Shown here piece after piece: positions 7,680 to 25,318 of a stretch of 64,000 nt of DNA; position 1 is the stretch's first letter, and the number at the start of each line of letters is the position of its first letter. The translations under genes and the position numbers were made by a program. Origin of the DNA: Streptomyces griseochromogenes (GTDB lineage Bacteria; Actinomycetota; Actinomycetes; Streptomycetales; Streptomycetaceae); assembly GCF_001542625.1 (NCBI RefSeq), contig NZ_CP016279.1:4960001-5024000 (forward strand), given 5' to 3'. The notes beneath the pieces are model-generated. The model was not told where the DNA came from, made no database searches, and worked only from the letters and a program-made list of their open reading frames with translations.

Positions 7680-8027
7680 TCAGCGGTGACCCAGCACGTT
7701 GACAACACGGCCGTTGGGGTCGCGGACGAAGAACCGTCGTACCCCCCACTCCTCGTCCTGCAAGGGATGGACGATCTCCACACCGCGCTCCTGCATGGCC
7801 GCGTAGGCAGCATCCACGTCGTCCACCTCCACACTCATGTCGGGGGTGAGCGGCGCCGTCTTGTCGCTGGCCATGAAGCTGACCTGCGCCGCCGGATTGG
7901 ACGGCGACGCGAGTGTCATGATCCAGCCGTGGTTCATGACCTCCTCGAAGCCCAGCAAGCCATAGAAGTCCCGGCTCTCCTGCGCGGCCTCTGACTGGAT
8001 GTTGGGTACGACTCGACGAACGGTCAT
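7680..8027 (-). CDS. VOC-superfamily (glyoxalase/bleomycin-resistance fold) protein
   Basis: This 115-residue single-domain protein starts at ATG 8027 after GGAGT. It shows the vicinal oxygen chelate pattern: MTVRRVVPNIQ opening strand, SRDFYGLLGFEEV helix, a D-V-D-A-A-Y segment, and the closing RRFFVRDPNGRVVNVLGH strand. The length fits one beta-alpha-beta-beta-beta module pair. Such proteins act as lyases, dioxygenases or drug-binding proteins; the specific role is not evident from sequence. It stands alone between a pseudogene and a lipoprotein gene. Confidence 0.85.
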   Translation of the reverse strand: MTVRRVVPNIQSEAAQESRDFYGLLGFEEVMNHGWIMTLASPSNPAAQVSFMASDKTAPLTPDMSVEVDDVDAAYAAMQERGVEIVHPLQDEEWGVRRFFVRDPNGRVVNVLGHR

Positions 8028-13193: not shown

Positions 13194-13470
13194 CGCTGTG
13201 CCGGTGGCTGAACGAGTAGGCGTCCGTGAGATCGATGACGCTGAGAGCCGGCGCCTCCTGCAGATCATTCGTAGAGGCACCGGTTCGGTGGTGAGGTGAC
13301 GGCGGGCCCAGATGGTGCGCCTGTCGGCGCGGGGCACGGCCGTTGCGAAGATCGCCGAGGTGACGTTCACCAGCGCGGATCGGGTCCGGGACGTGATCCA
13401 CAAGTTCAATGCCGACGGCTTCGAAGCGCTCTACCCGAAGTGCAAGGGTGGCCGGCCGAAGAAGAAGGCC
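13194..13470 (+). mobile_element. IS630-family transposase remnant (N-terminal HTH)
   Basis: The frame reads RVGVREIDDAESRRLLQII, RRGTGSVVR, a TGA, then RRAQMVRLSARGTAVAKIA and RVRDVIHKFNADGFEALYP. This is the paired helix-turn-helix N-terminus of IS630-family transposases. The TGA at the RRAQ junction replaces the Trp codon normally found there. The DDE domain is absent after GGRPKKK. Confidence 0.75.
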
Positions 13471-13580
13471 GAACCGGTCCGGCTGGTGCTGGACCCGCTC
13501 GCCCCAGAAACCCGCCACGGGGATGCTTCACGCCCCCCGGGTGCTCTACTGGACGGCCTGGGTAATGCCTACTGCGCGAT

Positions 13581-13735
13581 TCAGCGGTCGATGTGCACGA
13601 TGAAGTACAGATCTCCGGGCGCACCGCCATGCTTCCCCAGCCCGCCAAGTTCCCTGATCCGAACCTTCTGCCCGTCCCGGAGGCCGGCGGGGAAGCCACG
13701 CTCTGGGCCGATCAGGTCACACGGCTCCAATGCGG
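13581..13735 (-). pseudogene. DnaJ C-terminal domain scrap
   Basis: About 45 minus-strand codons read FPAGLRDGQKVRIRELGG and GKHGGAPGDLYFIVHIDR before a stop. This is the characteristic DnaJ C-terminal substrate-binding strand block (PAG-RDG-x-R-I-R-x-x-G-G-x-G-x-x-GG-PGDLY). Neither the J domain nor the zinc-finger region is present, so this is a fragment dropped between IS pieces. Confidence 0.7.
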
Positions 13736-13764
13736 CGCACGGGCCAGCACACCCCGATCGGGTG

Positions 13765-14106
13765 TCAGGCGAGATCGAGGCGGCTGAGCGTGGTGGTCCA
13801 GTGGGTGACGATCGCCTACTGCGCCGCCTTTGGAGTGACCTTCCCGGAGCAGACCGTCGTGTGCAGCTTCGTCTCCACCGCGTCCTCCAGGTTGTTCACG
13901 CCCCAGCCCGGCTTGTGGCCCGGGTCGGCCGGCTCACCCCAGAGCTTGCGGGCGTTGTCCGGGTCACCACCGAGCTGCAGGCTGATCAGGTGGTCGTACT
14001 CGGCGTCTCCAAGGCTGCCCTTGTAGCCGTAGGAGGCGGCGTTCAGCTTCTTCTCCTGGCGGGTGATGGCCTCAGGGGCCGGATGTTCTTGCCACCGCCA
14101 GGACAA
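13765..14106 (-). pseudogene. Decayed secreted HNH-like protein, copy 2
   Basis: This longer copy of the family seen at 7197 retains AASYGYKGSLGDAEYDHLI, SLQLGGDPDNARKLWGEPA, VETKLHTTVCSGKVTPKAAQ and, beyond a TAG codon, AIVTHWTTTLSRLDLA with the family's terminal stop at 13765-13767. The TAG immediately after AAQ replaces the second codon of a QQ/QR pair. The DHL...LGG...NLW core resembles an HNH nuclease motif, but nuclease activity in this family is only inference. The signal peptide and first third are missing. Confidence 0.7.
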
Positions 14107-14636
14107 CGATCAGCCAACGCACGTCACCCGTCTGGCCGGAAGCGTGATCGCATTCTCCTTGGGAGAAGCCAGCGGCAGGCCTTGTATACCGCTGCGGACG
14201 CATTCGCGAGTGCCTGTGGGGTCGACTCACAGGCGCCCGCGTCCCCAGTGAGCCTGCCTCTCACTACTTGAAGGGACGGCTGGCGCGAACCGCGTGCGTG
14301 TAGGCGGCATTGAGGCGCGGCAGGTGCTTGGAGGCCCGCCGCGCCTGTGTTTGAGCATGTGTCAGCAAGCATGAACGCTGTCTGTGACGGCGTGGAGCCG
14401 ACAGGTGGCCTTCGCATCATCAGGGCCCTTGTTGGGTGAAAGCGTGTGCGATCAGTACGCCGCGAACGCGACGAGCGTCCCTGGGGAAAATCAAGGCTCT
14501 GGCCGCAGTTCCGTGAAAGCGCAGGTCAGCGACAGGAAGACACCATCCGTCCCTCGGTTTCCGTACCGTAGCGATCAACGCGTGGGACGTAGGGGCAGTG
14601 GTCGGCTGTCCTGGGATGATCGACGGCCCGGCCGGT
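14107..14636. other. No gene recognised
   Basis: About 530 bases without a supported gene. Short frames occur on both strands but have no ribosome binding site, consistent codon bias or recognisable motif. Confidence 0.4.
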
Positions 14637-16745: not shown

Positions 16746-17852
16746 TTATGGGGTGGGTGCGAGGGAGTTGCGATCGGCGAAACCTTGTTCGGGGAGGACG
16801 ATGAAGATCCCGGAGCCAGAGGGGTGCTCCACTGAGGCCCTGCGGATGAGATCGGTCCACTCTGGGCTCGGCCACCGAGTGTCGCTGTCCCAGAGGATCC
16901 CAACGAGGTTCATCGTTGAAGGGTCCACGTCGCTGAAGTCGGCCCCTACGAAGTTGTTCGCTGCATCAACCAAATTGTCATGAGCTTCGATGAGGCCGTG
17001 GTCGAGGTCGAGGGCTCGGGTGACGTCGCGGGCACGAGTGGCTTCCTGGACCCGATCGAGGTCGACGGTGATGGTGGCGGCGAGGTCGCTGAGGTCGTAA
17101 ACCTGGTTGATGTCGTAAACCTGGTTGATGTCGAGGGCACGGGCAAGGCAGCAGGCGCGGTCAAGTCTCTGGTCGAGCTGGCGGGTGAGGTCACGGGTGC
17201 GGTCGAGGAGGCGGGGGAGGTCGTAGGCGTCGGCAAGCTCGTGGGCGAGGTCGCGAGCGCGGCCGAGGTCGGGCAGGTCGAGGGCTTCGGCAAGGTCGGC
17301 AGTGAGGTTGCCGACAAGGTGGCGATCGAGCGCGTGGTCGAGGTGGCGGGCGTGGTCGCGCGCTCGGTCGAGGTTGTCAGCCAGGTCGAGGGCGCGGGTG
17401 AGGTCGTTGACGTTTTCAGGGGCACTGGCGCGGATGAGGTCGAGGGTGTGGGCGAGGCGGCGGTCGAGGACGCGGGCGCGATCGCGGGCCTGGTCGAGAG
17501 CCAAAGCCAGGTCGGGGTTGCGGTCGAGGTCCAGGGTGAGGGCTGCAGCTGCTTCCTGGAGGGACTCTGCGACGGCCTGGAGGGTGCCACGACTGCGAAG
17601 CCGCTCCTGTGGAGATGCGGACTTCCAGCGAGTCGTCACGTCAGCCAGACTCGGCCCGGTTCGTCCGTCTTGGGCTGCGTCAGTCTGAGGAGTCTCACTA
17701 GGGCGAGAGACATCTGAAAATGAAGTGGAAGCGGTAGGACTATCCGGTGCGGGCGGAAGGCGGGAAACCTTCAGCGGAGGCCGGAAGCCAGGAGAACGTC
17801 GTGAGAGCACGGCCAGGACGCGGCCCACGAAGGATTCGGCAGTGATCGTCAC
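16746..17852 (-). CDS. Leu/Arg/Asp heptad-repeat protein with pentapeptide-like tail
   Basis: This 368-residue protein has three zones. Residues 1-95 are Ser/Pro/Thr-rich and probably disordered. Residues about 96-285 are a long series of imperfect seven-residue units of type LDxARDL (ARALDLADNLDRARDHARHL, LDHALDRHLVGNL, INQVYDINQVYD), predicted to be an extended amphipathic helix or coiled coil with strongly alternating charge. Residues 290-368 contain NFVGADFSDVDPSTMNLVGI, WDSDTRWP and a closing GSGIFIVLPEQ strand, like the capping part of pentapeptide proteins. The GTG start overlaps the stop of the upstream membrane-protein gene by four bases, so the two are translationally coupled. The function is unknown. 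Confidence 0.7.
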   Translation of the reverse strand: MTITAESFVGRVLAVLSRRSPGFRPPLKVSRLPPAPDSPTASTSFSDVSRPSETPQTDAAQDGRTGPSLADVTTRWKSASPQERLRSRGTLQAVAESLQEAAAALTLDLDRNPDLALALDQARDRARVLDRRLAHTLDLIRASAPENVNDLTRALDLADNLDRARDHARHLDHALDRHLVGNLTADLAEALDLPDLGRARDLAHELADAYDLPRLLDRTRDLTRQLDQRLDRACCLARALDINQVYDINQVYDLSDLAATITVDLDRVQEATRARDVTRALDLDHGLIEAHDNLVDAANNFVGADFSDVDPSTMNLVGILWDSDTRWPSPEWTDLIRRASVEHPSGSGIFIVLPEQGFADRNSLAPTP

Positions 17853-18438: not shown

Positions 18439-20080
18439 TCATCCGACAGGGAAGTGATTCTGCGTAACCAACGTGCTGAGAGGGCGGCACGCCTGGGCGG
18501 GCACGGGCAGCGTGGGCGTGGGCGTATGGAGCTGGCGCGGCTGCTGGGCGGGCATCAGCGGACATGCCAGTCCGGGGATCGCGATGAGGTCGTCGCGGTG
18601 ATGCGGCATCGCAGTGTGCAACCGACGCTGGATGGACCAGAATCGCGCGGCTTCCTCGGGCGTGTAGGGGCGGGCCTGCTCTGTGACCAGGGCCAGCGCG
18701 GCAGCGCGGTGCCGCGCCCAAGCCCCTGGCCGTCACACGCGTTGTGGTAGAGGCGATGGGTGTCACGCCGCATCACCAGGACCGAGTCGACAGCTGACAG
18801 CTGCTCGGCCGTCGCCACCACCTCGGGCAGGACCGCGAAGTGGCTGTCGTGCCCGGCTGCGGTGGTGAACCGCGCAGGCACATTCCGCGGGCTCACCTGG
18901 GCATAGCGAGCGGCCGTGCCCTGGCGGGAATCGGCCGCGCGCACCGCCAGGACCACCAGCTCCACCCGGTAGCCGGCCTGCCGGAACAGGGACGCCCCCG
19001 CGACGAAGGCGGCGGCGCATGCCGGGGTGATCTCGATGACCACGTCCCCGCGCCGCTCGCGCACGTACGTCCCGGCCTGCGCCTGCCAGGCCCCGGTAGT
19101 CGGCATCTTGCCGGCGCCGGGCTGGGCCATCACGTACCCCTCGACGGGCGCCTCCTGCGGTTTGATCGGCCCGAGCAGCGGCGCGATCAAGTCGTCAAAG
19201 ATCCAGCGGTGCTCGTCCGTTGAGAGGCGGTGGCAGTCGACCCCGGCTGCTTCCTGGCGAGGCTGGGCGGTGCGTCGGAGCGGCTCGGCCCGGGCGGCGG
19301 CGCGCTCGGCGTCGCGGCGCACCGCCGGCGACCAGTCCTCCGGAAGCCGGGGATCGGCAAGACGCCGGTCGGCGTCGGCGAGCTGACGGCGGAAGAGTCC
19401 CGTTTCCGTGGGGTCCCACGGGCGTCTGCGCTCGGCGAGCACGGCGTCCGCCCGCGCCCGTCGGCGGCGCCACTGGCCGTCTGGGCCGAGCTCGTTGGCG
19501 TACACCGCGGGAAGCGCTGTTTCGGCGGAGCGCCGTACGACCAAGACCCGGTCCGCCAGGCGGCAGGCCTCTACCGTGGTGAGGGTCGCGAGCAGCCCAG
19601 CCGCGCACGTGGTGTGGTTGTCCCAGGAGACGTAGTGGGCCCGGCTTTCCTCGGCGAAGCGCGGGTATCGGTCCAGGATGCCGAGCCGGCCGACCGCCTC
19701 GGGCGCGGCCAGGGCCACGATCTCGACGCGGTACCCCTCCTCCCGGTACGCCGCCACTTGTGTCAGGAACTCCTGTGGTTGCGCCAGAGGCGCCTCCACC
19801 ACCGCGTCGAATCGGCCCTGGCGGACCCGCGCTTTGACTTCGGCCTGTCATCGGTAGGTCTCGGGCCGCCGCACCTGTACCCCGGCCGTGCGCACATCCT
19901 CGGTCAGGAAGTCGGCGTAGCAGGGGTGGGCGCTCTTGTAAGCGTCGCGGTCCGCTCTCACCGCGCCACCGCGCCGCCGGAGCGCGGCGTACACGAGGTC
20001 GACCACCAGCGTTTTGCCGCTGCCCTGCTGCCCTGCTGTCCGGCGACGAACACCACCACCGGACGCAGTATGTGACTTTG
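18439..20080 (-). pseudogene. Tandem zeta-toxin-type kinase, multiply disrupted
   Basis: Two zeta-toxin-like P-loop kinase modules lie in tandem. Intact zeta toxins phosphorylate UDP-N-acetylglucosamine and are held in check by epsilon antitoxin. Module 1 would read VVVFVAGQQGSGKTLVVDLV, but an 8-base direct duplication (AGGGCAGC twice, near 20030) shifts the frame inside the Walker A loop. A TGA at about 19849 then interrupts PETYR-QAEVKARVRQGRFD. Module 1 continues with EAPLAQPQEF and VEIVALAAPE. Module 2 has QPGAGKMPTTGAW, with Met in place of the Ser/Thr after the P-loop Lys. A further frameshift near 18730 moves the C-terminus (TEQARPYTPEEAARFWSIQR, LHTAMPHHRDDLIAIP) into the frame ending at 18439. 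With at least four lesions the gene is dead. No antitoxin gene was found. Confidence 0.75.
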
Positions 20081-20203
20081 GTGGTGCGGTGTTGGCCGTA
20101 GTGGAACCGCAGGTACGGCCGACGGGCCAGGGCGAACGCGCACTGCTCCTGTCCGGTCGATTTGGCGCCTGCGACTCCTCAACTGTGCCTCTTGGCCTGG
20201 GCG

Positions 20204-20220
20204 TTGATCATTTGTTGATC
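20204..20220 (+). promoter_or_regulatory. Direct repeat upstream of the RiPP precursor gene
   Basis: TTGATC occurs at 20204-20209 and again at 20215-20220, eleven bases apart start to start, so both face the same side of the helix. It lies about 90 bases before the peptide start codon, a plausible position for a promoter element or regulator site. This is inference from spacing only. Confidence 0.25.
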
Positions 20221-20307
20221 GTAGTGGGGGAGCATGGAGAAGCCAGCTGCGCACGGTCTTCACAAGGGGGCGTGCGTGACATCTCCGCCCTGGAAGGGGG
20301 TGTAGTG

Positions 20308-20388
20308 ATGAAGCTTCTCTTCGCCCTTCGCAACAAGGTGTCCGCTCAGAAGAGCCTGAAGAAGAGTGCCTGGTACTTCTGGTACTAG
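20308..20388 (+). CDS. RiPP precursor peptide, atropopeptide (tryptorubin) type
   Basis: The ATG at 20308 follows GGAAGGGGG by seven bases and encodes a 26-residue peptide. Residues 1-20 are a basic leader (MKLLFALRNKVSAQKSLKKS). Residues 21-26 are the presumed core Ala-Trp-Tyr-Phe-Trp-Tyr, directly followed by the stop. Tryptorubin A, the founding atropopeptide, derives from the hexapeptide Ala-Trp-Tyr-Ile-Trp-Tyr, in which one P450 builds carbon-carbon and carbon-nitrogen crosslinks between aromatic side chains. The core here differs only by Phe for Ile. The gene is 97 bases upstream of a P450 gene on the same strand. Leader cleavage probably occurs after Ser20 by a host protease, since no peptidase gene is adjacent. 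The call rests on core sequence and context, which agree. Confidence 0.85.
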   Translation: MKLLFALRNKVSAQKSLKKSAWYFWY

Positions 20389-20485
20389 GCCGATTCGTAG
20401 CATCCGGTGAGGTCGCCCCCGGCCGTACGGCGGGGGGCGACGCCGCCCGCCGCCCGCCTGCCCCTCGGCCTTCCGGAGATCCCGC

Positions 20486-21529
20486 ATGCGCCGCACGTTG
20501 TTCCATCCGCGACTTGCCGCCCTGTTCCGGGACCACCTAGGGCAGGACGTGTTCCGGCTCGAACCCGACACCGTCGGGGTCGCCGGGCATGAGGCCGCCG
20601 ACCGGATTCTCGCCGCCCGCCGGGCCACCGAGACCGAGCGGCCCACGTTCAAGCCGCTGCACGGACGCTCGATCTCGCGCGGCGAGGCGTCCTCGGTGAT
20701 GCGGACGATCGGCGGCGATGTGCGCGAGGCACTGAAGAAGCCCCGCTCCCGGCCCGAGGACGTCGATCTGTCGGGGGTGTGGCCGCTCAGGGGACATCTG
20801 TTCCTGCGGGACCTGATCCTTGGCCAGGATCCGTACCGGCTGCGGATCCTGATGAGCCGCAATCTCGAACTGACCCCCAAGCTGACCTGGGCGGTGATCG
20901 CGGCGGGCGCCGCGCTCCCGGGGCGGGTGGGCCGGCGCGGGGCCCCGCTGACCGCCATCGCGGGCCTGACGGCCGAGGCGGCCGGATATCAAGAGCGCCG
21001 ATATGCCATGGGCATGTATCGGAGGGCGGCGGCACCCGTGTGCTTCACGGTCTCCACCCTGGTCGCGAACGCTCTCTGGCTCGGCGCACCGTTCGACCCC
21101 GGCACGCCGAACCGGCACATCCTGTACGAGGCCATGCGGCTGCTGCCGCCGTCCTGGAACATCCTGCGCAACGCCTGCCCCGAGTACGCCGCCCTCGACG
21201 AGCGCATCGGCACGGGCGACGACGTCCTCGTCCTGCCCCTTCTCTCCCACCGGGATCCCAAGCTGTGGGAGGACCCGCACGTGTTCCGCCCGGAGCGCTG
21301 GGAGACCCTCGACCCCGACACCGCGCCCGGCTACCTCCCCTTCGGCCATTCCTCCGAGCGCTGCTGGGGCCGGCACATGGTGATGCCGCTCGCCGAGCTG
21401 CTCCTGGACCTGGTACGCGGCGCGGGCCTCGCCGTCAGCCCCGAACAGACCTCCGCGAAGGTTCCCCTCGTCGGACTGCTCGGCGTCGAGGACGTCCAGG
21501 TGACGAGGGTGCGCCGTGCAGCTGTCTGA
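20486..21529 (+). CDS. Cytochrome P450, probable peptide-crosslinking enzyme
   Basis: This 347-residue P450 is shorter than the usual 400. The heme loop is FGHSSERCWG with the thiolate Cys at about residue 293, and the K-helix E-x-x-R is EAMR in ILYEAMRLLPPSW. The I-helix region (APVCFTVSTLVANALWL) lacks the usual A-G-x-x-T oxygen-activation motif, as is seen in some P450s that abstract hydrogen or make radical couplings rather than hydroxylate. Lying directly after the aromatic precursor peptide, it is the best candidate for the crosslinking enzyme. Its 3' end overlaps the next P450 start by 14 bases, implying translational coupling. The start ATG is near the AGATCCCGC leader; a slightly different start is possible. 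Confidence 0.8.
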   Translation: MRRTLFHPRLAALFRDHLGQDVFRLEPDTVGVAGHEAADRILAARRATETERPTFKPLHGRSISRGEASSVMRTIGGDVREALKKPRSRPEDVDLSGVWPLRGHLFLRDLILGQDPYRLRILMSRNLELTPKLTWAVIAAGAALPGRVGRRGAPLTAIAGLTAEAAGYQERRYAMGMYRRAAAPVCFTVSTLVANALWLGAPFDPGTPNRHILYEAMRLLPPSWNILRNACPEYAALDERIGTGDDVLVLPLLSHRDPKLWEDPHVFRPERWETLDPDTAPGYLPFGHSSERCWGRHMVMPLAELLLDLVRGAGLAVSPEQTSAKVPLVGLLGVEDVQVTRVRRAAV

Positions 21530-22760
21530 GCCGTCGGACGAGATCGGGAACGAGACCGAGACCGAGATGGTGGGTGACTCCTTCGCCCGCCACCCTCATG
21601 ACGTCTACCGGCGCTGGCGCGAAGAGGGCGGTGTCCGCAAGGTCCGCTTCGCCGGTGCCGCGCCCTTGGCCGGGTGGGTCGTCACAGGGCACGCCGCCTG
21701 CCGGGCGGCCCTCGCCGATCCCCGGCTGAGCAAGGACGGCGCGACCGAGGCGTACGCCCGTCACGAGGGACTTCCCGTCGGCGGCCCGGGCGGCGGGCTC
21801 ACCAGCCACATGCTCAACTCCGACCCGCCCCGCCACACGCGCCTACGGCGTCTGGTCCAACAGGCGTTCACCCAGCGGCGGGTGGCGGATCTGCGCCCCC
21901 GGATCGAGGCACACGTCACGACGCTGCTCGACGCCCTCGACGGGACGGACGAGGGCGATGAGGTAGACCTGATCGCCCGGTTCGCGCTCCCGCTGCCGCT
22001 GGCCGTGATCTTCGACCTGCTGGGCGCGGACCCCGCCGCGCATGGGATCCTCCAGGTCCGCGGTCACACGGTGAGCGGGGACGGCGGCGACGGGGAGGTG
22101 TCCGTCCCGACGGCCGAGGCGATGCTGGAGCGACTGCGCGCGCTCATCGCGGAGAAGCGGGCCCGCCCGGGCGACGACCTGCTCTCCGCTCTCCTCACTG
22201 CCGGCGACGGAGGCGACCGCCTCACCGGGCAGGAGGTCACCTCGATGGCGTTCCTGCTGGTGATCGCGGGTCACCAGACCACTGTCAACCTAGTCGCCAA
22301 CGGCTTGCTCGCGCTGCTCGCCCACCCCGCGCAGCTCGCCGCCGTACGCGCCGACCCCTCACTCATCCCCTCCCTGACCGACGAAGTCCTGCGCCACGAG
22401 AGCCCGTTCGCTCTCGCGAGCCTGCGCTACACCACCGAGCCCGTGACGATCGACGGTACGACGATCCCGGCCGGGGAGTTCGTCCAGATCGCGCTGGCGG
22501 CCGCCAACCGCGACCCGGAGGTCTTCGCCGACCCCGACCGGTTCGACGTGACCCGCGACGCCTCCCAGCACCTGGCGTTCGGCCACGGCGTCCACCACTG
22601 CCTTGGCGCACCGCTGGCCCGCCTCCAGGCCGAGATCGCCTTCGCCCACGTACTGCGGCGCTTCCCCGGTCTGCGCCTCGCTCATCCGGAGCGCACCGCC
22701 GAGTGGCAGGACAACCCCCGGCACCGCGGCCTGCTCACCCTGCCGGTCCGGCTGCGCTGA
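21516..22760 (+). CDS. Cytochrome P450, canonical bacterial class I
   Basis: This 414-residue P450 starts at GTG 21516 inside the end of the previous gene. All landmarks are present: I-helix LLVIAGHQTTVNLVANG (acid-Thr region), K-helix DEVLRHESP (E-x-x-R), and heme loop FGHGVHHCLGAPLARLQ with Cys at about residue 362. It resembles actinomycete secondary-metabolism P450s (CYP105/107-like). Reported atropopeptide loci are described with one crosslinking P450, so this second enzyme may tailor the crosslinked peptide, for example by hydroxylation. An electron-transfer ferredoxin is not in the operon; the nearest is at 16306-16500. A stop-proximal palindrome and hairpin follow. Confidence 0.85.
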   Translation: MQLSEPSDEIGNETETEMVGDSFARHPHDVYRRWREEGGVRKVRFAGAAPLAGWVVTGHAACRAALADPRLSKDGATEAYARHEGLPVGGPGGGLTSHMLNSDPPRHTRLRRLVQQAFTQRRVADLRPRIEAHVTTLLDALDGTDEGDEVDLIARFALPLPLAVIFDLLGADPAAHGILQVRGHTVSGDGGDGEVSVPTAEAMLERLRALIAEKRARPGDDLLSALLTAGDGGDRLTGQEVTSMAFLLVIAGHQTTVNLVANGLLALLAHPAQLAAVRADPSLIPSLTDEVLRHESPFALASLRYTTEPVTIDGTTIPAGEFVQIALAAANRDPEVFADPDRFDVTRDASQHLAFGHGVHHCLGAPLARLQAEIAFAHVLRRFPGLRLAHPERTAEWQDNPRHRGLLTLPVRLR

Positions 22761-22800
22761 CGTCGTACGACGATACGTTTGAGCCCCGCACGGGGGGGCT
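22761..22800 (+). terminator. Hairpin region after the P450 pair, probable terminator
   Basis: Directly after the stop codon is a perfect 12-base palindrome (CGTCGTACGACG, 22761-22772). It is followed by a hairpin AGCCCC (22782-22787) / GGGGCT (22795-22800) with a seven-base loop. There is no long T tract, as is common in Streptomyces. It fits termination of the peptide-P450 operon. Confidence 0.5.
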
Positions 22801-23428: not shown

Positions 23429-23794
23429 CTAATGGGCCGGGCGTGCACCTGCGCTGCGCGGCGACAGCCGCCGTGTGATCCGGTCGAACAGCTCCGTCAG
23501 CGGCTCGCCGACGTCCCGACCGAACTCGGTCAGCCCGTAGGTGACCTGGGGCGGCGTCGTCGGCTCGACCTTCCGCCAGACCAGGCCGTCCTGGACCAGC
23601 GCGCGCAGGGTCTGGGCGAGCATCTTCTCGCTGATGCCCTGGATGCTCTTGCGCAGCTCGTAGAACCGGAGGTCGTTGCTCCGCAAGGAGATCAGCACCC
23701 AGATACCCCACCTGCTGGTCACGTGGTCGACCACATCGCGCGCGGGGCACTCAGTGTGAAACGCCTCATACCGCTCCTCCGCCTCGGCCTGCAT
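23429..23794 (-). CDS. HxlR-family transcriptional regulator
   Basis: This winged-helix protein of the HxlR/MarR-like type has a Cys near the N-terminus (FHTECPARDVVDHVTSRW), WGIWVLISLRSNDLRFYEL, the recognition region GISEKMLAQTLRALVQDGLV and the wing VTYGLTEFGR. I prefer ATG 23794, nine bases after GGGAGG, to a GTG at 23815; this gives 121 residues. The single N-terminal Cys could serve as a redox or electrophile sensor, as in other HxlR proteins. It is transcribed divergently from the NmrA-like oxidoreductase with a repeated site between them, so it probably represses or activates that gene and itself. Confidence 0.88.
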   Translation of the reverse strand: MQAEAEERYEAFHTECPARDVVDHVTSRWGIWVLISLRSNDLRFYELRKSIQGISEKMLAQTLRALVQDGLVWRKVEPTTPPQVTYGLTEFGRDVGEPLTELFDRITRRLSPRSAGARPAH

Positions 23795-23824
23795 GAGCTG
23801 CGCGCCTCCCGTCACGTGATGAGC

Positions 23825-23855
23825 TTACCCAAAGGTATGTCCTTACCAAAGGTTA
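23825..23855 (+). promoter_or_regulatory. Repeated operator between hxlR-type and nmrA-type genes
   Basis: TTACCCAAAGGTA (23825-23837) and TTACCAAAGGTTA (23843-23855) are near-identical units eighteen bases apart, and each has internal symmetry (ACC...GGT). They lie in the shared promoter region of two divergent genes. ACC/GGT half-sites with this spacing fit binding by HxlR dimers. The A/T-rich composition stands out in this G/C-rich DNA. Confidence 0.6.
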
Positions 23856-23906
23856 GCCCGACTCCTAGCGTCATGACTACAGAGGACATCGGACAAGGAG
23901 CTGATC

Positions 23907-24746
23907 ATGATCGTGGTGACAGGGGCTACCGGGAATGTGGGCCGGCCGTTGACGCGGGCGCTGGCCGAGGCGGGCCAGCAGGTGACGGCAGTGTCACGGC
24001 ACGCGAGGGTAGTGCCGGACGGCGTCCGCCACGTGGCGGCCGACCTGGCCGAGCCGGCCGGCCTTGAGCCCGCGCTGGACGGGGCGAAGGCACTGTTCCT
24101 GCTGCTGTCCGGCGACATGCACGCCGCCGGGGCCGGCCCGGCCGACATCATCGGCCGAGCCGCGGCCGGCGGGGTCCGCCGCGTCGTCCTGCTCTCCACG
24201 CAGGGCGTGGCGACCAGGCCCCTCGGTCCGTCGCGGGTCGCGATGCGCGCGGTGGAGGACGTGCTGCGGGAGTCCGGCCTGGACTGGGCCATCCTGCGGC
24301 CGGGCGGCTTCGCCTCCAACGCCCTGTGGTGGGCCGAATCCGTCCGCGCCCGGCGGGTCGTCGCCGCGCCCTTCGGTGACGTCGGGGTGCCGATCATCGA
24401 CCCGACGGACATCGCCGAGGTCGCGGCGGCCTGCCTGCTGGACGACCGGCACACCGGCGGCGTGTACGAGCTGACCGGCCCGGAAGTGATCACGCCGCGC
24501 CAGCAGACGCAGGCCATCGCCGCCGCACTGGGCTCGCCAGTGCGGTTCCACGACCTCACCCGCGACGAGGCCAAGGCCGCCATGGCTCAGAGCATGCCGG
24601 CGGAGCTCGCCGAGGACACCCTGGAAATCCTCGGCTCCCCGAGCCCGGCCGAGCTGCGCGTCAGCCCGGACGTCCAGCGGGTCCTCGGCCGCGCTCCGCG
24701 CCCCTTCGCCGACTGGGCCGCTCTCAATATCGCCGCGTTCCGCTGA
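23907..24746 (+). CDS. NmrA-like NAD(P)-binding oxidoreductase
   Basis: This 279-residue atypical short-chain dehydrogenase starts at ATG 23907, six bases after AAGGAG. The N-terminal MIVVTGATGNVGRPLTRALA carries the G-x-x-G-x-x-G dinucleotide loop. ILRPGGFASNALWW and IDPTDIAEVAAACLLD are typical of the NmrA/azoreductase-like group, and no Ser-Tyr-Lys triad is apparent. Members act as NADPH sensors or quinone/azo reductases. It is divergent from the HxlR regulator, a pairing often tied to response to quinones or other electrophiles. Confidence 0.85.
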   Translation: MIVVTGATGNVGRPLTRALAEAGQQVTAVSRHARVVPDGVRHVAADLAEPAGLEPALDGAKALFLLLSGDMHAAGAGPADIIGRAAAGGVRRVVLLSTQGVATRPLGPSRVAMRAVEDVLRESGLDWAILRPGGFASNALWWAESVRARRVVAAPFGDVGVPIIDPTDIAEVAAACLLDDRHTGGVYELTGPEVITPRQQTQAIAAALGSPVRFHDLTRDEAKAAMAQSMPAELAEDTLEILGSPSPAELRVSPDVQRVLGRAPRPFADWAALNIAAFR

Positions 24747-24785
24747 ATCCCGGTGATCGCCCGATCGGACCCGCACTTCGACAGG

Positions 24786-25318
24786 CATTGAGGCGTTGGA
24801 CGTGTCGGTGGGTGATGAGGCAGGTGGCGAGGCCGAAGAACGCCTCGTGGATGTCGTCTCTTCGCTCCCATCGGATGCGCAGGCGGCGGAATCCGTGGAG
24901 CCAGGCGATGGTGCGCTCGAGGACCCAGCGGTGGACGCCGAGGCCGGAGATCCGTGCGGGACACCGCGGCGTGCGATCACCGGTTTGATGGCCTGGGCCC
25001 AGACGAGCCGGCGGTACTTGTCGTGGTCGTAGCCGCGGTCTGCGAGCAGCGTCTCGGGCCTCCAGCGCGGGCGTCCGACCAGGCCTGGGACAGAAGGGGC
25101 CTTGTGCAGCAGGGGCAGGAGCTGGGTGATGTCGTTGCGGTTTCCGCCGGTCAGCGACACTGCGAGCGGGATGCCCTGGCCTTCGACGAGGACATGATGT
25201 TTACGGCCCGGCCGTGCGCGGTCGACCGGACTCGGCCCGCTTTTGGGCCTCGTCGGGCGGCCCGGGCGTGGGAAGAATCGGTCACCGCCCGCGACCAGTC
25301 CAACTGCTTGGGGACGTC
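24786..25318 (-). mobile_element. IS5-family transposase, two frameshifts and truncated
   Basis: The minus strand carries the DDE half of an IS5-family transposase in three frames. These are DWSRAVTDSSHARAARRGPK (first Asp), KHHVLVEGQGIPLAVSLTGG with NRNDITQLLPLL and LLADRGYDHDKYRR (second Asp), and GLGVHRWVLERTIAWLHGFR (Glu) with RWERRDDIHEAFFGLATCLI. Frame changes occur near 25200 and 24960. The N-terminal domain is missing at the 25318 end. Confidence 0.8.

Follow-up and report, generated by a model that had tools for sequence, protein, structure and literature searches.

Atropopeptide products are crosslinked and show non-canonical atropisomerism. The core of tryptorubin is AWYIWY, and the tryptorubin (trp) cluster consists of two genes. 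Atropopeptide clusters are defined by a short precursor (10–40 aa) with a KSLK-like motif next to a P450, and their cores carry a conserved Trp at position 2 and an xWxxW pattern (PMC11450843). The same source describes 683 putative clusters, in which extra P450s are a frequent kind of tailoring gene, and reports the lau cluster of Streptomyces laurentii (LauB1, LauB2) with its product laurentirubin B, published in 2024 (PMC11450843). LauB1 alone yields tryptorubin B; the fourth bond, an aryl ether linking the second Trp to the last Tyr, requires LauB2 (PMC11450843). The published lau fragment measures 2436 bp, the two-P450 layout was first seen by its authors in strain MMG1121, and the paper points to two more characterised clusters that have an additional P450, citing its reference 30 (PMC11450843). 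The LauA core is given as WYIWY, and ScaB, whose own core has Phe at another position, accepts many cores (PMC12352619). The scabrirubin, varsorubin and amyxirubin clusters share the family of precursor and P450 with the locus described here, differing from it in their cores (TWFIWYS, SWYQWL and others) and in that the sections covered of the two papers name no second P450 for them (PMC11450843, PMC12352619).

Our analysis of a 64,000-nucleotide stretch of Streptomyces griseochromogenes DNA, taken as a whole and referred to as the window, places a real, open-framed laurentirubin-type atropopeptide cluster at the following positions.

20172..22765, + strand: conserved cassette of upstream region, precursor, P1 and P2, seen as a single block match at 94% identity in S. 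alanosinicus (L017)
20292..20300, + strand: Shine-Dalgarno-like GGAAGGGGG preceding the precursor, a purine-rich site in aligned upstream regions
20308..20388, + strand: precursor gene, 26 aa, MKLLFALRNKVSAQKSLKKSAWYFWY, with a comparable ORF upstream of P1 at 116 of 119 loci
20350..20361, + strand: leader KSLK recognition motif, residues 15–18, as defined in PMC11450843
20368..20385, + strand: core peptide AWYFWY, present at 23 of 119 loci
20486..21529, + strand: P1, family-defining atropopeptide P450 of TryB/LauB1 type, 347 aa, assigned from sequence relatives and Pfam
21341..21370, + strand: P1 heme-ligand motif FGHSSERCWG, a sequence motif
21516..22760, + strand: P2, second P450 of LauB2 type, CYP107-like, 414 aa, assigned from Pfam and sequence relatives
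22266..22280, + strand: P2 I-helix motif AGHQT, with Gln254 replacing the usual acid, from the motif and alignments

All three ORFs are open in the window. The precursor ORF begins with ATG at 20308, runs for 26 codons with AWYFWY at its C terminus and ends in a stop at 20386–20388; 97 bases (20389–20485) separate this stop from the ATG of P1, and P2 starts with GTG at 21516, overlapping the end of P1 by 14 bases. The original prediction had described just this arrangement, namely a 26-residue peptide ending in Ala-Trp-Tyr-Phe-Trp-Tyr, a 97-base gap to a short P450 without A-G-x-x-T and a canonical second P450 with a 14-base overlap. The sequence confirms it, with coordinates exact to the base, and P2 carries AGHQT, ExxR and FGHGVHHCLG. 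Like the lau cluster, the locus combines a precursor with a LauB1-type and a LauB2-type P450 at near-equal length (precursor to P2, 2453 bp); unlike lau, which has Ile4, its core has Phe4, and its product is a predicted one. With the trp cluster it shares the KSLK leader motif, the AWYxWY core and the family-defining P450, whereas a third gene and Phe4 set it apart. Phe thus sits where tryptorubin has Ile, as had been proposed.

The precursor and P1 fit the atropopeptide family in several respects. At 26 aa, with KSLK at residues 15–18 and a position 97 bases ahead of P1, the precursor has the defining features, and its core has both Trp2 and xWxxW. Pfam p450 matches P1 and P2 at 50.1 and 110 bits, respectively. 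P1 carries ExxR and FGHSSERCWG and has no A-G-x-x-T, the absence of which is the rule in this family, since the string is missing from 113 of the 119 distinct P1 sequences obtained from all fetched loci combined; the remaining six have one at scattered places. Among the 60 listed of 152 matches to solved structures, the best stretch of P1 begins at about residue 201, and the alignment with the top match, 9ulw, is confined to the C-terminal part. P1 is 58–96% identical to the other 118 P1 sequences, and comparison with these relatives places it among the family-defining P450s. Among them, a P1 at 73% identity is placed on S. jumonjinensis contig NZ_VCLA01000160.1 (L094) over the jum cluster, a characterised atropopeptide cluster (PMC11450843).

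A precursor-like ORF, sought by pattern as a KSLK-like motif plus an aromatic core within 1200 bases upstream of P1, is found at 116 of the 119 distinct loci. A chance ORF is rejected because an ORF of the same design recurs at this many P1 loci. The original prediction of a tryptorubin-type atropopeptide locus had named a lack of precursor-like peptides beside homologous P450s as its refutation; the 116 loci speak in its favor. At a threshold of E ≤ 1e-80, relatives of P1 were detected in 45 of the 392 genomes sampled from the genus, in 14 of 70 from another genus in the family and in 2 of 14 from the family holding G043 (Catenulispora by the name on P0081). This other genus would be Kitasatospora, as the P1 of genome G552 equals that of the named record L029. 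A scan of named genomes, with 80 of 113 relatives kept, includes Xanthomonas, Dyella, Luteibacter, Collimonas and one Burkholderia record.

P2 is a P450 of full length and CYP107-like type, with TamI and PikC among its best relatives of known structure. It is 85% identical to a protein of strain MMG1121 (P0005) and 79–80% identical to four proteins labelled S. laurentii (P0011–P0014), a species label that carries no strain name. On these identities P2 is in all likelihood the ortholog of LauB2, the S. laurentii-labelled proteins standing in for LauB2 itself in the comparison. Together with the 14-base overlap with P1, this gives the locus the two-P450 layout of the lau type. At E ≤ 1e-130, a P2 relative is present in 6 of the 392 genus genomes and in 9 of the 200 from the family sample, and across both P2 searches plus G043 and G046 a Gln-type P2 lies directly behind P1 in 14 of 14 distinct genomes. 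The proposed coupling of a second P450 to the locus is supported. That such a P450 would depart from the known pattern does not hold, as the layout is already published for the lau cluster of S. laurentii, on which account uniqueness of the two-P450 pattern is rejected (PMC11450843). A single unlinked P2 relative, with the motif AGHETT, is the S. specialis protein P0089 of G145, a genome outside the 45 of the genus with a P1 match. P2-like P450s at 42–50% identity are common elsewhere in these genomes; of the six unlinked loci inspected, five have AGHETT (L012, L014, L015, L016 and L130) and L013 gave no pattern match.

By analogy with lau work on an Ile core, from which the bonds, their order and the product are taken, we consider it quite probable that the locus is a three-gene lau-type atropopeptide cluster in which P1 makes the tryptorubin bonds and P2 closes an aryl ether on AWYFWY. 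The precursor leader would, through its KSLK motif, feed the core to P1, which would form the Trp-Trp C–C, Trp-Tyr C–N and Trp-backbone N bonds with loss of 4 H. P2 would then close the aryl ether from the second Trp to the last Tyr with a further loss of 2 H, and host peptidases would cut off the leader, with the N-terminal Ala being lost from part of the product. The computed [M+H]+ values predicted for the action of both P450s (−6 H) are 929.3617 for AWYFWY and 858.3246 without Ala, and those for P1 alone (−4 H) are 931.3774 and 860.3402. The same arithmetic at −6 H gives 895.3774 for AWYIWY and 824.3402 for WYIWY, and the published masses of the lau products are 895.3760 and 824.3401 (PMC11450843). 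This agreement supports the lau-type reading, as do the P1 relatives across the genus, elsewhere in the family and outside it, with a precursor-like ORF at 116 of 119 loci, the identity of P2 to S. laurentii-labelled and MMG1121 proteins (the strains named for the two-P450 cluster), the span of 2453 bp vs 2436 bp, the 14 of 14 genomes with P2 behind P1 and the dN/dS values of both enzymes. It is weakened by the demonstration of the lau enzymes with Ile and not Phe at position 4, by a P2 dN/dS above that of P1, and by relatives in which P2 is broken (L018, L109) or absent (L020, L021). The cluster adds a compact, expressible example to the small set of peptides whose six-residue core is modified by two P450s in succession.

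P1 and P2 are under purifying selection. Against nine relatives, dN/dS is 0.16–0.25 for P1 and 0.22–0.42 for P2, the P2 value being the higher in 9 of 9 comparisons. This selection and the three open frames in the window argue against a silent or decayed locus that makes no product, a reading we regard as unlikely even though P2 is broken in two close relatives (L018, L109) and the locus gave no sigma-70-type promoter match, a weak test in Streptomyces. Scans of the locus for promoters, terminators and RNA families gave no matches. In L018 (S. monashensis) an internal stretch of P2 is replaced by a low-complexity repeat, and in L109 P2 is truncated near residue 187; both keep Phe4, and both breaks may be assembly faults. 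L020 and L021, whose P1 is 82–84% identical, have no P2, and their core is changed as well, to SWYIWY.

A comparison of core residue 4 across the P1 loci relates the Phe4 core to the presence of P2. The AWYFWY core had been thought new; its occurrence at 23 of 119 loci removes that claim as far as nature is concerned, and uniqueness of the core is rejected on the same count. The string AWYFWY is absent from the main texts of the papers searched, and literature matches to WYFWY, judged by titles and abstract openings, all come from other fields. Among two-P450 clusters a Phe4 core is common: the 26 loci with intact P2 have Phe in 19, Ile in 6 and Val in 1, the two with partial P2 (L018, L109) have Phe, and the loci that lack P2 over at least 1 kb downstream have Phe in 2, other residues in 83 and an unreadable core in 3. 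Phe4 is therefore present in 19 of 26 loci with intact P2 vs 2 of 85 readable loci without it, a count from which the contig-end loci L033, L082 and L114, the partial P2 loci L018 and L109, and L058, L085 and L132, which have no readable precursor, are excluded. Three loci were reached by P2 search alone, L149 (Phe), L150 and L155 (both Ile), and L151 (Phe) was reached by P2 search first and P1 search later, each of which enriches the sample for P2.

Because related loci are not independent, two kinship-aware tests were run on this association. The independent-pairs test (112 loci, 107 with both traits) yields 5 supported pairs, with 2–4 in the same direction and 0–1 in the opposite one, and cannot reach 0.05 with only 5 such pairs. 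A Pagel-type likelihood test on 119 loci, run on a quick, midpoint-rooted tree with a flat prior at the root, favors the dependent model, with LR 19.1–19.5 at 4 df and p 6e-4 to 7.5e-4 regardless of how the two partial P2 genes are scored. According to its fitted rates, gains of Phe4 are almost confined to loci with P2, and loss of Phe4 is fast in the absence of P2. P2, for its part, has a higher loss rate at Phe4 loci (3.9) than at the remaining loci (0.6), which argues against a simple mutual need. Since a few deep events can mislead such tests and the sample is partly drawn by P2, we rate the link as suggestive: Phe4 appears to go together with P2 in related bacteria, which is the mildly new part of this analysis.

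How far this link reaches into chemistry can be weighed against the same data. No column of the P2 alignment cleanly separates Phe from Ile/Val cores, and Phe4 is kept at four loci where P2 is broken (two) or absent (two); both observations argue against a direct contact between Phe4 and P2. A functional coupling, in which Phe4 is gained almost only with a LauB2-type P450 and quickly lost without one because it would position the last Trp and Tyr so that the ether can close, or would itself take part in a further bond, with an I-helix Glu-to-Gln change marking a switch from oxygen insertion to phenol coupling, is a tentative and rather doubtful proposal. If the Phe4–P2 link holds, it would provide a simple sequence rule predicting four-bond atropopeptide clusters, along with a direct mutational test. 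We regard it as unlikely that P2 modifies the Phe-containing core differently, for instance by a bond or oxidation at Phe4, so that the product would not be the plain Phe analogue of laurentirubin. The enrichment of Phe4 among intact-P2 loci and the favored dependent model (p ~7e-4) would suit it, but six Ile cores and one Val core also accompany an intact P2, and the core modified by the characterised LauB2 has Ile as well (PMC11450843, PMC12352619). The lack of a separating P2 column, the four Phe4 loci with broken or absent P2, the faster loss of P2 from Phe4 loci and the mere 5 supported pairs tell against it as well, and ether closure on AWYFWY remains the preferred reading.

The I-helix of P2 has a Gln of its own. 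In ordinary P450s the I-helix acid serves proton delivery. At the position of Gln254, both TamI and 8w6z carry Glu in the alignment. Among the best 120 of 1095 P2 relatives this position is occupied by Gln in 91 cases and by Glu in 28, and one sequence has a gap there; ranks 1–86 are all Gln, the first Glu comes at 87 and five Gln follow later. By alignment, AGHQ(T/S)T is present in 26 of 26 linked P2 proteins, whereas a pattern count of AGHQ gave 25 of 26, the pattern having caught another string, AGHIS, in one. For a biarylitide enzyme, prediction of the crosslink type is reported with mention of crucial I-helix residues (PMC13417212). If the AGHQ signature marks ether-forming P450s, it too would be a simple sequence rule predicting four-bond atropopeptide clusters. 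That P2 is a generic CYP107-type hydroxylase, there by accident and not acting on the peptide, is highly improbable: among solved structures it is most closely related to TamI, PikC and further P450s of polyketide type, but a Gln-type P2 follows P1 in all 14 distinct sampled genomes, and the LauB2 it resembles is needed for the fourth bond (PMC11450843).

Comparison of window positions 8001–36000 with eleven related loci, whose stretches reach at most ~5–6 kb beyond the block on each side (roughly 5 kb in S. alanosinicus), delimits the cassette. As in S. alanosinicus, single block matches are found in L147, L019, L148, L037, L045 and L030 (73–88% identity); the match to L055 begins at 20531 (71% identity), those to L149 and L018 are split in two pieces, and that to L020 is limited to the precursor and P1. 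Outside the block, the eleven loci give no match in this range except 124 bases at 75% in L019. The conserved block and unmatched flanks indicate that the cluster comprises the three genes with up to ~135 bases upstream, set in differing surroundings. A Zeta-toxin-like kinase with two matched stretches (18555–19802, − strand) adjoins the cluster, and downstream an HxlR-type regulator (−) faces an NmrA-like NAD(P)-binding protein (+) at 23429–24746; both are unmatched in the compared related loci. A 368-aa ORF of ARDL/ALDL-like repeats, with no Pfam family, lies at 16746–17852 (− strand). On either side of the cluster, at 13312–14271 and 23997–25160, lie ORFs that match HTH and DDE transposase weakly, in keeping with a mobile neighborhood.
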